Shown: in pieces, positions 12,059-18,090 of the stretch
Position numbering within the stretch: position 1 is the first letter of the stretch
Layout of the letters: every line of letters starts with the position of its first letter
From: Rhodobiaceae bacterium
Lineage (GTDB): Bacteria; Pseudomonadota; Alphaproteobacteria; Parvibaculales; Parvibaculaceae
NCBI GenBank assembly: GCA_021404525.1
Contig: JAAWWE010000003.1
Coordinates: forward strand, 124,001-188,000
Direction of reading: 5' to 3'
Length of the DNA: 64,000 nucleotides
Program-made: the position numbers and the translations under genes
Notes under the pieces: model-generated
Told to the model about the DNA's origin: nothing
Databases searched by the model: none
Seen by the model: the letters and a program-made list of their open reading frames with translations, nothing else

Positions 12059-12484
12059 ATGGACCGAACACTTTCGCCCCTTCTCATCACGCCCGGCCGT
12101 TTGCTTTTGGGTCTCTACTTTTTCGGGCCGGGGCTCGCGAAGTTCCTGGCCCCCGGTCAGCAGTTGGAACTGATGGTGCGCCATGGGGTGCCGTCACCGG
12201 AACTGCTGCTGATTGTGGCAGGGATTGCCAATGTGGGCGCGGGTATCTTGCTGTTCACAAACCGCTATGTGCGGCTCACGGCGATTGGGTGCGCGCTCTA
12301 CATTCTGGTGATCAACCTGATGTTGCACGATTTCTGGAACTTCACCGGTATCGAAGGGCAGCATGAGACCCAGAACTTCTTCAAGAATTTAGGCATTCTC
12401 GCAGGGCTCTTGGTGCTGGCAGGTGCCAGCCCCTGGAGACGGATCAGCCTCCAGGGACTTAAGCGCTCAGACGCTTCAGTTTAG
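12059..12484 (+). CDS. DoxX family membrane protein
   Basis: RLLLGLYFFGPGLAKFLAPGQQ...; four predicted hydrophobic helices. Confidence 0.75.
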   Translation: MDRTLSPLLITPGRLLLGLYFFGPGLAKFLAPGQQLELMVRHGVPSPELLLIVAGIANVGAGILLFTNRYVRLTAIGCALYILVINLMLHDFWNFTGIEGQHETQNFFKNLGILAGLLVLAGASPWRRISLQGLKRSDASV

Positions 12485-14419
12485 AGGTATGGAGAGCGTC
12501 CCCCCTGCGGACCAACCGTCGAGATCGGCGCCGATGCCGAAATAGGAGCCGAAGAGATCAAGGCTCGCGCCATTCTCAAACTCCATGGAGAGCTGGGGCG
12601 AGATGGAGAGTGAGAGATAATCATCTTCGCTCGTCGCCACCGTTCCAGCTTGCGTGTCCTGATCAGAAAAGGTGTAGGTCGCCTGCAGGCCAAGTGCGGG
12701 CTCCAGACGTTTGAAGCCGGACGGTGGCGTAAGGCTTGTGCCGATGGTTGGTCCTGCGGTCACATTGCCGGACCATGTGGTATTGCCGCCAATGTTGGTA
12801 CCAGCTGAGTTTACATAGTCCTCCCGGTTGACCCAGGTGCCTGTCACGGAAACAGCCGGGCGCATCCAGACATTGTCTGCCAGTTGTTCCTGGCCTGAAA
12901 TGCCAAGCGTCGCGGAGGCGAGCCTCGTGTCGTAGGAGCCGGTGGTGCCGCTGACGGCGATGTCATTGTCGGTGAGGCCAATCCGTGTGGACGCATTCAC
13001 ATCAATCTCGCCCCATTTGTAGCGGCCATAGGCGCCCAGCGAATAACCGGTCGTGTCAATGTCGAGACTGTTCACCGGCGAACTCACGTCGCCCCAGGTG
13101 GTGGTCGCAAAGAGGCCGATGCGCAGATCATCATTGATGTCTTTGTGAGCACCGAGCGCGACAAGGATGTTGTCGCCTTCTTGGCGTGAGGCATCATCCT
13201 GCTCATAGTCCGTATAGACGGCGCGAACCCAACCTACGATGGTCGATGAGAGTGTGCGGGAGAAGGAGAGGGGCTTCACGCTGTCTGAAAAGCCTTCGCC
13301 TGTGTCTGCAACATCAAGCCGGAAGCCGCGATAGCGCATCAGAGCGCGGGCAAACGGATCACTGCCGACGAAGAGGATGCTCTCTCCGTCGCCGCTACCC
13401 AGATCATCCAGGTCCAGGTCGGGGTTGTAAGCTGGCTGGTCTGCGTCGGGGTCCTTCTCTCCGAGGCGGTCTCTGATCTCCCGATTTCTTGCATCGATTT
13501 CAGAGAGTCTTTGCAGTTTGGATGGGAGTTTTTCATCGAGTTTTTTATCGAGTTTTTTCATTTCGGCTTCGAGTCGAGTGATTAAGCGCTCAAGATTGTA
13601 GGGAGTGGCTTCACCAATGTTGATCGGGGAGAGAAGGGTTAGCCATCCAGAACCTTCTGTGGCGCCTGCTATGTCATCACGGGTGTCTGGATCAGACTCT
13701 TTTTCATAATTTTCTTTGGCTATTTCTAAGTCATAGGCGAGTTCGTCCCGCTCATCCTGCAAAGTATCAATTTCTTTTTTGAGCTCCTCGCGTTCATTGT
13801 TTAAGCGGGTTCTTTCTGCCTCCAGAGCAGCGCGTTCTTGCGGACTAATCTCCGGTGGGCCTTGGGGTTCTGGATTTGTCGTGATGACTCCATCAAGGAT
13901 GCTGTCGACAACGCGGTTTTCGACAATCACGGCTGTTGTGGTGGCGTTGGTTGCGGTGTCTGCCTGATCATCCGCGCTGGAACTCCCCCCGCCGCCAACC
14001 ATCGGTCCGGGCGTGCAGGTGAAGGTCAGGGTGCCGCCATTGGCGACGTTGGCAGATAGTGTGCGCGTTAATGTGAAAGTTCCCGCTGAGGGTATTGTTC
14101 CAGACCCGGTCACGTCGGCAAAAGACGCATTCACGATCGAAATGGAGGACATGCCCTGGGAAAGAAAGGCCTGAGTGCCTGTCGGGGTACCGGTCGTTGT
14201 TGCGGTGATTACGTCGCCTGCAGCGAAGGTCTGGGAGACTGAGCCGCCAAACTGCAGTGGGTTGCCCACTGGGATGCTCAGATCGAAGGTTCCGGCATTT
14301 GCAGCCGCGCAGCCAGCTGAGGTTGCCGCTACGGCAGGCTGGACCCCGATGGTCCCAAAACCGCCAATTGCGACGACCACACCCAATGCGGCCTTCAGAC
14401 CTGTTTGCCCAATACCCAT
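12476..14419 (-). CDS. Autotransporter-type outer membrane beta-barrel protein with coiled-coil passenger (copy 1)
   Basis: N-terminal hydrophobic signal; Thr-rich beta domain; coiled coil RAALEAERTRLNNEREELKKEIDTLQDERDELAYDLE; barrel ESILFVGSDPFARALMRYRG...GGTLSIPLN. Confidence 0.82.
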   Translation of the reverse strand: MGIGQTGLKAALGVVVAIGGFGTIGVQPAVAATSAGCAAANAGTFDLSIPVGNPLQFGGSVSQTFAAGDVITATTTGTPTGTQAFLSQGMSSISIVNASFADVTGSGTIPSAGTFTLTRTLSANVANGGTLTFTCTPGPMVGGGGSSSADDQADTATNATTTAVIVENRVVDSILDGVITTNPEPQGPPEISPQERAALEAERTRLNNEREELKKEIDTLQDERDELAYDLEIAKENYEKESDPDTRDDIAGATEGSGWLTLLSPINIGEATPYNLERLITRLEAEMKKLDKKLDEKLPSKLQRLSEIDARNREIRDRLGEKDPDADQPAYNPDLDLDDLGSGDGESILFVGSDPFARALMRYRGFRLDVADTGEGFSDSVKPLSFSRTLSSTIVGWVRAVYTDYEQDDASRQEGDNILVALGAHKDINDDLRIGLFATTTWGDVSSPVNSLDIDTTGYSLGAYGRYKWGEIDVNASTRIGLTDNDIAVSGTTGSYDTRLASATLGISGQEQLADNVWMRPAVSVTGTWVNREDYVNSAGTNIGGNTTWSGNVTAGPTIGTSLTPPSGFKRLEPALGLQATYTFSDQDTQAGTVATSEDDYLSLSISPQLSMEFENGASLDLFGSYFGIGADLDGWSAGGTLSIPLN

Positions 14420-14489
14420 CACGCATCCCCTCTTGATGACTCGCTATGACTTGTTGGGGGCGAGTATTTCCGGGGATAAGGCATCGCAC

Positions 14490-14507
14490 CTCATCAAAAG
14501 TGATGAG
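14490..14507. promoter_or_regulatory. Candidate operator palindrome of module 1
   Basis: CTCATCA-AAAG-TGATGAG, perfect 7-bp inverted repeat between divergent genes; core TCATCA-N4-TGATGA shared with module 2. Confidence 0.7.
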
Positions 14508-14560
14508 TTGCCAAAAGTTCAATTGCCCTAGATATTTTGTCTCGTGGTGGGGGCCGAGTG

Positions 14561-16150
14561 ATGAGTAAAACCGAACTTGATGAGCTTGGGACCGTGAAGG
14601 TTGAGGCCGAGGGGCTGCCGGTTTCCGGTCTATGGGTGATGCAACCCGAGGCAAAACCGGATTCACGCGTAATTCTCTATGTTTATGGTGGCACGTTCGC
14701 GCTTAATCGGGGGCCGATGCATGAGGTTATCTCCGCGCGGTTGGCGACCCATGCGCGGGCGCGTGTCCTTCTGCTCGACTATCGGCTCGCTCCTGAACAT
14801 CCTTTTCCTTTGGCGATTGAAGACATTGTGGCGACCTATGACGCGCTTCTGGAGCAGGGTCAGGACCCCGCGAAGATTGTTGTCATGGGGGACACCGCAG
14901 GGGCGGGCATCGCCTTTGCCGCCATGCTCTCTTTGAGAGATCAGGGAAAGCCGCTGCCTGCGGGGATCGTCGCGCTTTGCCCGCTTGTTGATCTCACCTT
15001 TTCTGGTGGGTCCTATGTCGCCAATATTCGCCCGCGCGAAACGACATCAGATGTTGAACTGATCATGACGCTGGCGTTTGAATATCTGCAGGGTGCCGAC
15101 CCGCGCCATCCTTTGGCATCCCCGGCGTTGGCGGATTTGAGCGGCCTGCCGCCTGTCGAAATCCATGGCGATGTGAATGACGTTCTCTACGATGATGCAA
15201 TCTTGCTGTCGGAGAAGCTGCGCGGTGTTGGCGGCAATGTGAATTTCCATCAATGGGATGGTCTGCCAGAAACCTGGCAGGAGCTCGCGCCCTTATCCAA
15301 CCAGAGTTCAGCCTGTCTCGCGAAGATCGGTCAGTTCGTACGGCGTCGGACCAGCAATCCGCTGAGCATGACGCGAGAGGAGTCCGATCAGCTGGTTGAT
15401 GCCTATCAGGAGCACATCAAAAGCTATATCCAGCCCCATACAGCAGATCGGATTGATCAGGTGTTTGAATGGGCGCGGGTGCAAGGGCCGGATTGGGTCT
15501 GGCCCTTTATTCAACGGCGCTTAAAACACGGGGCATTGGTCACACAGGACCAGGTGGAGCGGGATTGGCTTTCCCTTTTGTTTACGCAGGCTGCGGACGC
15601 CATGGTTTTGCTGAGTGCCAGCCGGCACATCCTCCTGTCGAATGAACAAGCGCGACTGGTGCTCGAGCAGAAATCTCCGTTGGAATTAAAGAGCGGGCGT
15701 CTTGTGGGCACGAATGAGGCTTCGGAGGAGCTCTTGCAGCAGGCGTTAGACACGCTCTTCTCTCCTTCTGAGACCGATGATGGGCGGGCCTTGCGTCTCT
15801 CTACGAATGATGGTGACACCATGCTCGTGCGATGTAAGCGCCTGGCGGCACTGCCGGAGGATCGAGGCGCTCCGCCTGTTGTGCTGCTTCGGATTATCGC
15901 GGACCCGGACAAGATGCCGATCGATATCGAATCCCTTCAGGCCTGGTACGATCTCTCACCGCGTGAGGCCGCTGTGGCGGCGGCTTTCGCAGAAGGCATG
16001 TCGCTCACCGACTATGCAGAAGCGACCGATGTCGCGATCACAACGGTGCGCACGCACTTCGCGAACGTAAAAACCAAGCTGGGCGCTTCCGATCAGGCGG
16101 CCGTGGTGCGGAAGGTACTTGTGGCGGCAGCCTCAAACAGATGGTTCTGA
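14561..16150 (+). CDS. HSL-type alpha/beta-hydrolase (degenerate active site)-PAS-like-LuxR HTH fusion regulator (copy 1)
   Basis: YVYGGTF, YRLAPEHPFPLAIEDI, GDTAGAGIA; C-terminal LSPREAAVAAAFAEGMSLTDYAEATDVAITTVRTHFANVKTKLGASDQAAVVRK. Confidence 0.87.
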   Translation: MSKTELDELGTVKVEAEGLPVSGLWVMQPEAKPDSRVILYVYGGTFALNRGPMHEVISARLATHARARVLLLDYRLAPEHPFPLAIEDIVATYDALLEQGQDPAKIVVMGDTAGAGIAFAAMLSLRDQGKPLPAGIVALCPLVDLTFSGGSYVANIRPRETTSDVELIMTLAFEYLQGADPRHPLASPALADLSGLPPVEIHGDVNDVLYDDAILLSEKLRGVGGNVNFHQWDGLPETWQELAPLSNQSSACLAKIGQFVRRRTSNPLSMTREESDQLVDAYQEHIKSYIQPHTADRIDQVFEWARVQGPDWVWPFIQRRLKHGALVTQDQVERDWLSLLFTQAADAMVLLSASRHILLSNEQARLVLEQKSPLELKSGRLVGTNEASEELLQQALDTLFSPSETDDGRALRLSTNDGDTMLVRCKRLAALPEDRGAPPVVLLRIIADPDKMPIDIESLQAWYDLSPREAAVAAAFAEGMSLTDYAEATDVAITTVRTHFANVKTKLGASDQAAVVRKVLVAAASNRWF

Positions 16151-16167
16151 GGCCGCCGCTATCTGGT

Positions 16168-17970
16168 TTAATTGAGCGGTATTGAGAGCGTTCCCCCGAC
16201 GGACCAACCATCGAGGTCTGCGCCGATCCCGAAGTAAGAGCCGAAGACATCAAGACTCGCCCCATTGTTGAACTCCATGGAGAACTGCGGGGAGAGTGAG
16301 AGGGAAAGATAGTCTGTCTCGCTCGCTGTCACGGTCCCTGCCTGGGTGTCCTGATCTGAATAATTGTAGGTAGCCTGCAAGCCAATGGCGGGCTCCAGAC
16401 GTCTCAGGCCTTCAGGCGGTGTGAGGCTCGTGCCAATGGTTGGTCCTGCAGAAACATTGCCGGTCCAGGTGGTGTTGCCGCCAATGGCCGTGCCGGCGGA
16501 GTTCACATAGTCTTCCCGGTTCACCCATGTGTTGGTCACAGAGATGGCTGGACGCATCCAGACATCATCCGACAATTGCTCCTGGCCGGAGATGCCAAAG
16601 GTGAAGGAGGCGAGCCGTGTGTCATACGAGCCTGTGGTGCCGCCGACGGCGATATCGTTGTCGGTGAGACCGATCCGGGTTGAGGCGTTCACGTCAATGG
16701 CGCCCCACTTGTAACGGCCATAGGCGCCCAGCGAATAGCCGGTGGTGTCAATGTCGAGATTGTTGACCGGTGAGCTCACATCCCCCCATGTGCTTGTCGC
16801 AAAGAGACCGACTCGCAGCTCATCATTAATGTCTTTGTGGATGCCCAGCGCCACCAGAATGTTATCTCCTTCCTGCTGGGATGCATCGTCCTGCTCATAG
16901 TCCGTATAGACGGCACGCACCCAGCCTACGATGGTGGAGGAGAGGGTCCGTGTGAAGGAGAGGGGCTTTACGCTGTCGCTAAAGCCTTCGCCTGTGTCTG
17001 CCACATCGAGCCGGAAGCCACGATAGCGCATCAACGCACGGGCAAACGGATCACGGCCTGCAAAGAGGATGCTCTCCCCGTCTCCCAGATCTTCGGGATC
17101 AGCTGGTGTGAAATCTCTTTGATTGTTGGGTGTTGGCAAACGCTCAAGTCTTTTCTCAATCTCCGCCTGGCGTTCTTTATTGACCTGTAACTCCCGTTCA
17201 GCGCCCAACAACCAATCGCGCTCAGCAGCGTTTGACTCCGCAATACCCTTGGCTACACCCAATGGGCCCGCTACCCCTAAGAATACTCCCATACCCGTAG
17301 CTTTCCCTGTTTTAGTGAAAGACTCAGGGTTCTCTTTGAAGTGTTTAATGTCTGCTTCTAGTTCGGCTTGACGTTCCTCCAATGCAATCTGTTCTGTTCG
17401 CAGTCTGTTTGCTGTTTCCTGCGCTTCAATGTCGATGCTGGAAGGACCAGGGTCTTCCTGCGCAGCACCATCGATGATGCCGTTCACAACACCATTCTCC
17501 ACAATTACCGATGTCGTTGTGCTGTTGGTGGCGGTATCGGCCTGCTCGGTTGATCTGGGGACGCTTGCTCCCGGGCCACCTGTGCCGACTGGTGTGCAAG
17601 TGAAGTTGAGGAAGGCCGGTCCACCAGGGCCGCCAGCGAGAGTGATATCAATTGTGCGGGGACCGCCTACAGTTAGCGTGTGTGACCCAGACCCGTTGGC
17701 ACCGTTGAGGACGAGCAGTGTATCAAAACCAGGCAGCAGATCGACGCCCACACCCAATGGCGTGCCGGTGGCAGTGACAAACAAAGTGTCGCCAACATCA
17801 AAGGTGCCGCCTGTCTGTGTCAGCAGGTTGGTGTTCGCGGGCGTTGATTGATTGAAAGCCCCCATATTGGCAGAATCACAGCCAGGGGACGCCTGAGCAG
17901 ACGTGCTGGCAATGAGCGCAGCTACCCCAGCACCACAAAATACCAGCTTTTTGGCCAAATTTTTTTGCAT
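16168..17970 (-). CDS. Autotransporter-type outer membrane beta-barrel protein with coiled-coil passenger (copy 2)
   Basis: Signal peptide MQKNLAKKLVFCGAGVAALIASTSAQA; barrel almost identical to copy 1, passenger divergent. Confidence 0.82.
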   Translation of the reverse strand: MQKNLAKKLVFCGAGVAALIASTSAQASPGCDSANMGAFNQSTPANTNLLTQTGGTFDVGDTLFVTATGTPLGVGVDLLPGFDTLLVLNGANGSGSHTLTVGGPRTIDITLAGGPGGPAFLNFTCTPVGTGGPGASVPRSTEQADTATNSTTTSVIVENGVVNGIIDGAAQEDPGPSSIDIEAQETANRLRTEQIALEERQAELEADIKHFKENPESFTKTGKATGMGVFLGVAGPLGVAKGIAESNAAERDWLLGAERELQVNKERQAEIEKRLERLPTPNNQRDFTPADPEDLGDGESILFAGRDPFARALMRYRGFRLDVADTGEGFSDSVKPLSFTRTLSSTIVGWVRAVYTDYEQDDASQQEGDNILVALGIHKDINDELRVGLFATSTWGDVSSPVNNLDIDTTGYSLGAYGRYKWGAIDVNASTRIGLTDNDIAVGGTTGSYDTRLASFTFGISGQEQLSDDVWMRPAISVTNTWVNREDYVNSAGTAIGGNTTWTGNVSAGPTIGTSLTPPEGLRRLEPAIGLQATYNYSDQDTQAGTVTASETDYLSLSLSPQFSMEFNNGASLDVFGSYFGIGADLDGWSVGGTLSIPLN

Positions 17971-18027
17971 GACACCCCCGCGCGAAAATCAGATTTCGCA
18001 CAAGGTTTCACTTTCTCGGTTTTCTGG

Positions 18028-18047
18028 CATCATCATTAGTGATGATG
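18028..18047. promoter_or_regulatory. Candidate operator palindrome of module 2
   Basis: CATCATCA-TTAG-TGATGATG, perfect 8-bp inverted repeat with 4-nt spacer between divergent genes. Confidence 0.72.
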
Positions 18048-18090
18048 GTTCATCAAATGTGGGGATGCATGAGGCTGGTGAGGAAATGAA

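Follow-up and report, generated by a model that had tools for sequence, protein, structure and literature searches.

The Two Divergent Modules

The window, a stretch of 64,000 nucleotides from a Rhodobiaceae bacterium, contains two modules in which a minus-strand autotransporter gene and a plus-strand regulator gene diverge from an intergenic region, of 138 bp in module 1 and 120 bp in module 2. In module 1, AT1 (12476–14422, minus strand) encodes an autotransporter with a C-terminal β-domain (PF03797, E = 7e-21) and a coiled-coil-like passenger, and its divergent partner is the regulator gene R1 (14561–16150, plus strand). In module 2, the autotransporter gene AT2 (16168–17970, minus strand; PF03797, E = 3e-19) faces R2 (18091–19674, plus strand), a paralogue of R1 that is about 47% identical to it and has the same architecture. 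Compared in blocks of 60 residues, AT2 and AT1 are 80–97% identical in the barrel and mostly 20–50% identical in the passenger, a pattern that suggests variable passengers carried on a homogenised barrel.

In three same-genus species (G001–G003), a third autotransporter/regulator module lies between the two modules seen here, and in a fourth (G004) a different contig carries it. This module is missing from the window genome, where the corresponding site, 16150–16168, extends from the R1 stop to the AT2 stop. Its loss probably came about through recombination between the barrel regions of the autotransporters, which are nearly identical.

The Regulators

Both regulators begin with an Abhydrolase_3 (HSL) domain (PF07859, E = 3e-44 in R1 and 6e-41 in R2) and end with a LuxR/GerE HTH (PF00196, E = 3e-8 and 2e-6), the latter scoring 33.8 and 27.9 bits against a curated cut-off of 23.5. 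The domain search found no autoinducer-binding family in R1 or R2; the position at the N-terminus is taken by Abhydrolase_3. The segment between the two domains is compatible with a PAS-like fold, which its predicted secondary structure fits in a model of moderate quality (pLDDT 65).

The catalytic set of the HSL esterases, that is, HGG, the Ser of GxSxG, and the His, is not retained. When R1 is aligned with the esterase EstD11, HGG reads YGG, Ser144 aligns to Thr112, and the His aligns to Glu237. The Ser-to-Thr replacement, in the context G/C-D-T-A/S-G, is present in 24 of the 24 full-length regulators described below. Since both the nucleophile Ser and the catalytic His are replaced, the sequences point to the N-terminal domain being a non-catalytic sensor, with the caveat that the Thr could in principle act as a nucleophile.

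A Palindrome Common to Both Intergenic Regions

Each intergenic region contains a palindrome, to which no strand is assigned. Palindrome 1, CTCATCAAAAGTGATGAG, reads CTCATCA-AAAG-TGATGAG and occupies 14490–14507, with the core TCATCA-AAAG-TGATGA at 14491–14506. Palindrome 2, CATCATCATTAGTGATGATG, reads CATCATCA-TTAG-TGATGATG and occupies 18028–18047, with the core TCATCA-TTAG-TGATGA at 18030–18045. These positions agree with the preliminary description of this DNA, as do the distances it gave to the regulator starts, 53 nt for R1 (ATG, 14561) and 43 nt for R2 (GTG, 18091). The R2 start codon is uncertain, and relatives suggest that the start may be 15 nt further in. That both sites are perfect inverted repeats with a 4-nt spacer was also borne out; that the spacer constantly ends in AG was not, as relatives show CTAG, CAAG, TTTG, and CAAT/ATTG. 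A fixed NNAG spacer was accordingly rejected, the spacer differing between lineages (AAAG, TTAG, TTTG, CTAG, CAAG, CAAT).

An inverted repeat with 6-bp arms is by itself common in regions this long, since simulated regions of matching length contain one in 21% and 31% of cases, and to this extent the two sites might be thought to resemble each other by chance. None of 20,000 simulations, however, gave the two regions an identical arm and spacer, and the palindrome is conserved across two families, so that chance resemblance, to which we give a negligible probability, is refuted for practical purposes. When the two intergenic regions are aligned locally, the best match is the palindrome itself; once it is masked, the flanks resemble each other no more than random sequence would (462 of 500 shuffles score as well), in keeping with the earlier statement that the surroundings are dissimilar. 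In the window as a whole, there are 16 matches to the core at two mismatches or fewer against 3.4 expected, a count that includes both palindromes and many weak matches elsewhere.

A further half-site-like stretch, TCATCAAAT, follows palindrome 2 at 18046–18066, and the third module of the relatives has a conserved ATTGTGATG after its palindrome. Both are possible auxiliary half-sites.

Conservation among Relatives

Homologues of the regulators were sought in the window genome and 60 relatives, 385 genomes of the class, 40 of the order, and GTDB contigs. The search gave 24 full-length homologues. Two of them belong to the window genome and three to each of the four same-genus species, one for each module; six genomes of a Parvibaculum-type genus and four genomes of a second family have one each. 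In a likelihood tree, the separation of the modules is older than that of the species.

The core TCATCA-N4-TGATGA lies upstream of 20 of the 24, that is, all members of the R1, R2, Parvibaculum-type, and second-family groups. The other four are all orthologues of the third-module regulator, and have TCACCA-AATT-TGGTGA inside CATCACCAAATTTGGTGATG, which shares its 20-bp frame with CATCATCATTAGTGATGATG; relative to the TCATCA core, each half has one change. Within each of the five ortholog groups, none of the 12 half-site positions varies, whereas outside the core the invariant share is 0.59, 0.41, 0.43, 0.18, and 0.39, so that 41–82% of the flanking positions vary. Across five species, palindrome 1 also keeps its four spacer bases and palindrome 2 three of four. 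The orthologous intergenic regions had been named in the preliminary description as the place where absence of the motif would tell against an operator. The motif is present there, and its conservation in all ortholog groups strongly supports the reading of the palindrome as a predicted operator.

The Recognition Helices and Possible Cross-Regulation

The C-terminal HTH helices of R1 and R2 had been described as nearly identical, and indeed the two proteins have in common the stretch TVRT[HQ]F..[VI]KTKLGASDQAAVVRK. Recent gene conversion was considered as a source of this likeness and rejected: the two stretches differ, by eye, at many synonymous positions, and protein constraint is therefore the more likely cause. 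Both R1 and R2 differ from the third paralogue, where operator and HTH residues are both altered. There, the HTH reads NTVRTQFAHIR, in which [T/A/P]TVR is changed to NTVR and K to R, and the operator has the TCACCA half-site. The small LuxR protein of a split relative (see the last section) likewise has NTVR and the Arg, and goes with a third half-site. It is suggestive that changes in the recognition helix and in the operator go together, in what are few independent events.

Cross-regulation, with R1 and R2 each acting on the other's site, is a plausible consequence: cross-binding is probable because the core operator is common to the two regulators, whose recognition helices hardly differ. 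The alternative is that each regulator acts on its own site only, the common core being a relic of duplication and the flanks giving specificity. The bases flanking the R1 site, CCTCATCA, do differ from those of the R2 site, CATCATCA, and positions outside the core are conserved within each module; moreover, the third paralogue demonstrates that operators of this lineage can diverge. Against this, the core has been retained between flanks that have no remaining similarity, and the recognition helices of R1 and R2, unlike that of the third paralogue, are nearly identical. We regard strict own-site action as rather doubtful, and favor cross-binding.

Linkage and Genome-Wide Scope

A change of divergent partner does not separate the palindrome from the regulator. 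The Parvibaculum-type genomes keep it with a partner that, instead of being an autotransporter, is either an OmpA-family protein or an outer-membrane-protein-like secreted protein with an OmpA-family protein next in line. The regulator of G344 has no autotransporter opposite, and it too is preceded by the palindrome. The gene just upstream of that regulator (L125:4912–5436) encodes a secreted protein of 174 aa that resembles, by eye, a PagL-type lipid A deacylase. The reverse case is found in G002, where an additional autotransporter copy (L074:1617–3518) has no regulator alongside; CGCACCTCATCA-CTTT-TGATGAGGTGCG, a perfect palindrome of 28 bp, lies about 84 nt ahead of the start of this copy. 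Since the palindrome is kept both with the regulator and with a solo autotransporter, the site belongs to both promoters, that of the regulator and that of the surface-protein gene.

The preliminary description proposed a genome scan in which hits upstream of surface-protein genes would define a regulon; such a regulon is not supported by the scan. The 4.16-Mb genome contains five exact copies of the core, of which the three other than the two sites are all inside ORFs, so that a wide regulon is rejected for exact sites. The exact pattern given earlier, TCATCANNAGTGATGA, has three genome copies, namely the two sites and one inside a permease-like ORF. Among 44 one-mismatch sites examined, two are outside ORFs and neither is convincingly placed upstream of a gene. 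In the relatives, the other exact copies examined are all within open frames, including those in genomes with no regulator, and are therefore treated as chance; an extra copy in G004 (contig C117) is inside an ORF with a DUF971-like frame, as judged by eye. The operator thus looks local and dedicated, a large regulon being unsupported among exact and the 44 one-mismatch sites; weaker sites are possible.

The same data bear on the proposal that the palindrome is not a site for R1 and R2, but is used by some housekeeping regulator unrelated to them or works as a nucleic-acid structure. The palindrome is able to form a short hairpin. Nevertheless, neither intergenic region contains a terminator-like site, the window genome has no third intergenic exact copy, the exact copies examined in regulator-less genomes are confined to open frames, and operator and HTH are altered together in the third module. 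We consider such a role very unlikely, and take the regulators themselves to be the probable ligands of the site.

Promoter Geometry and a Proposed Mechanism

A consensus scan of the module 1 intergenic region gave a single promoter-like match, TTGCCA-17-GATATT, directed toward R1 (14508–14536, plus strand). Its −35 hexamer starts right beyond the palindrome, and its second hexamer is mostly conserved. In the opposite direction, a putative −10 hexamer, AATACT (14463–14468, minus strand), is suggested for AT1 by its invariance and fixed spacing in five species; it also precedes the solo autotransporter copy of G002. Given AATACT, the palindrome centre would be at −42.5 on the AT1 side, where no −35-like hexamer is found (the sequence is AGGTGC). 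On the R1 side, the centre would be between −42.5 and −44.5, depending on the choice of −10 hexamer. In module 2, the consensus scan found no promoter match. The −10 and −35 assignments are consensus matches, and a class-II geometry is suggested by the conserved −10-like hexamers.

We consider it likely that the palindrome serves a small lineage of LuxR/GerE-type regulators as its dedicated operator, and that such a regulator activates the autotransporter, tunes its own gene, and responds to a ligand through its pseudo-esterase domain. A dimer of HTH domains would bind the pair of TCATCA half-sites that lies between the divergent promoters, as predicted from the conserved inverted repeat. The autotransporter would most likely be activated, from a class-II position centred at about −42.5 at a promoter with no −35 of its own, and the regulator gene would be tuned at the same time, the −35 of R1 abutting the palindrome. 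Activation and autoregulation are favored because of the −42.5 centre and lack of a −35 on the AT1 side, together with the promoter-like match on the R1 side. The N-terminal domain, a presumed descendant of an HSL esterase that has lost nucleophile and His, would most likely sense a ligand that sets binding or activation, and R1 and R2 would probably each act on the other's site as well.

The same operator could instead be used by repressors, with a dimer covering both −35 regions and keeping autotransporter and regulator off until released by ligand. The abutment of the palindrome on a −35 matching the consensus at five of six positions (TTGCCA) ahead of R1 would suit repression, and a common operator between divergent genes is a frequent repressor layout too. 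This reading has to contend with an autotransporter side that has no recognisable −35, with an operator centre at the position of a class-II activator, and with the general behavior of GerE-type regulators, which are mostly activators. We think repression unlikely, and retain activation of the autotransporter as the preferred reading.

Comparison with Known Systems

LuxR homologues usually bind a 20-bp palindrome at −42.5 (PMC4471428). The site proposed here is like the lux box and other LuxR-type operators in being an inverted repeat of about 20 bp, associated with a GerE-type HTH, and centred near −42.5 of the inferred start. It is unlike them in its half-site, TCATCA, with a 4-nt spacer, in the lack of an autoinducer-binding domain in the regulator, and in the gene opposite the regulator, which encodes an autotransporter or another surface protein. 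The operator would be of a known, ordinary kind, and the pseudo-esterase/LuxR architecture is the unusual variant; searches of the open-access literature for LuxR proteins that include an esterase or hydrolase domain gave no description of it. The palindrome is now a well-supported and testable candidate operator for pseudo-esterase–LuxR HTH fusions, and the three paralogous regulator/operator pairs with their matched changes offer a natural test of co-evolution between HTH residues and half-sites.

The best fold matches to the N-terminal domain are the HSL-family esterases EstD11 (PDB 7at0) and E40 (PDB 4xvc), and regulator residues 13–262 align to EstD11 over the domain (E = 7e-57). From these enzymes the regulators differ in the replaced catalytic residues and in the fused PAS-like segment and HTH. 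A possible unfused relative of the regulators is a split pair in G003 (L127:968–3913) and G001 (L128), where an active-looking Abhydrolase_3 esterase gene is followed by a small GerE LuxR gene. The pair resembles the fused regulators in the helix ahead of the HTH (EWARVQGPDWVWPF / DWAANNGEDWIFEF), in having a surface-protein-like gene opposite, and in its intergenic palindrome, TCATACATTTGTATGA (TCATAC-ATTT-GTATGA), which is conserved in both species and has the same 6-4-6 frame with a different half-site. It differs in that the genes are separate, the catalytic residues look active, and there is no PAS-like segment. The split pair may represent the ancestral state of the fused regulators; its branch is too long to be placed in the likelihood tree.

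The plant gibberellin receptor GID1 has an HSL-derived fold that ceased to be catalytic and became a receptor when the active-site His was lost (PMC3531792). The HSL-derived domain of the regulators likewise has no catalytic His, an analogy that extends to the sensor only: unlike the regulators, GID1 still possesses its nucleophile Ser, lacks an HTH, and exerts its effect through DELLA proteins. We suggest tentatively, and with slightly less than even confidence, that the GID1 principle applies here, a non-catalytic HSL esterase serving as the ligand sensor of a LuxR-type autotransporter regulator that arose from a split operon, with operator and recognition helix diverging together. Such a pseudo-esterase sensor would be a possible bacterial counterpart of the lipase-derived hormone receptors of plants.
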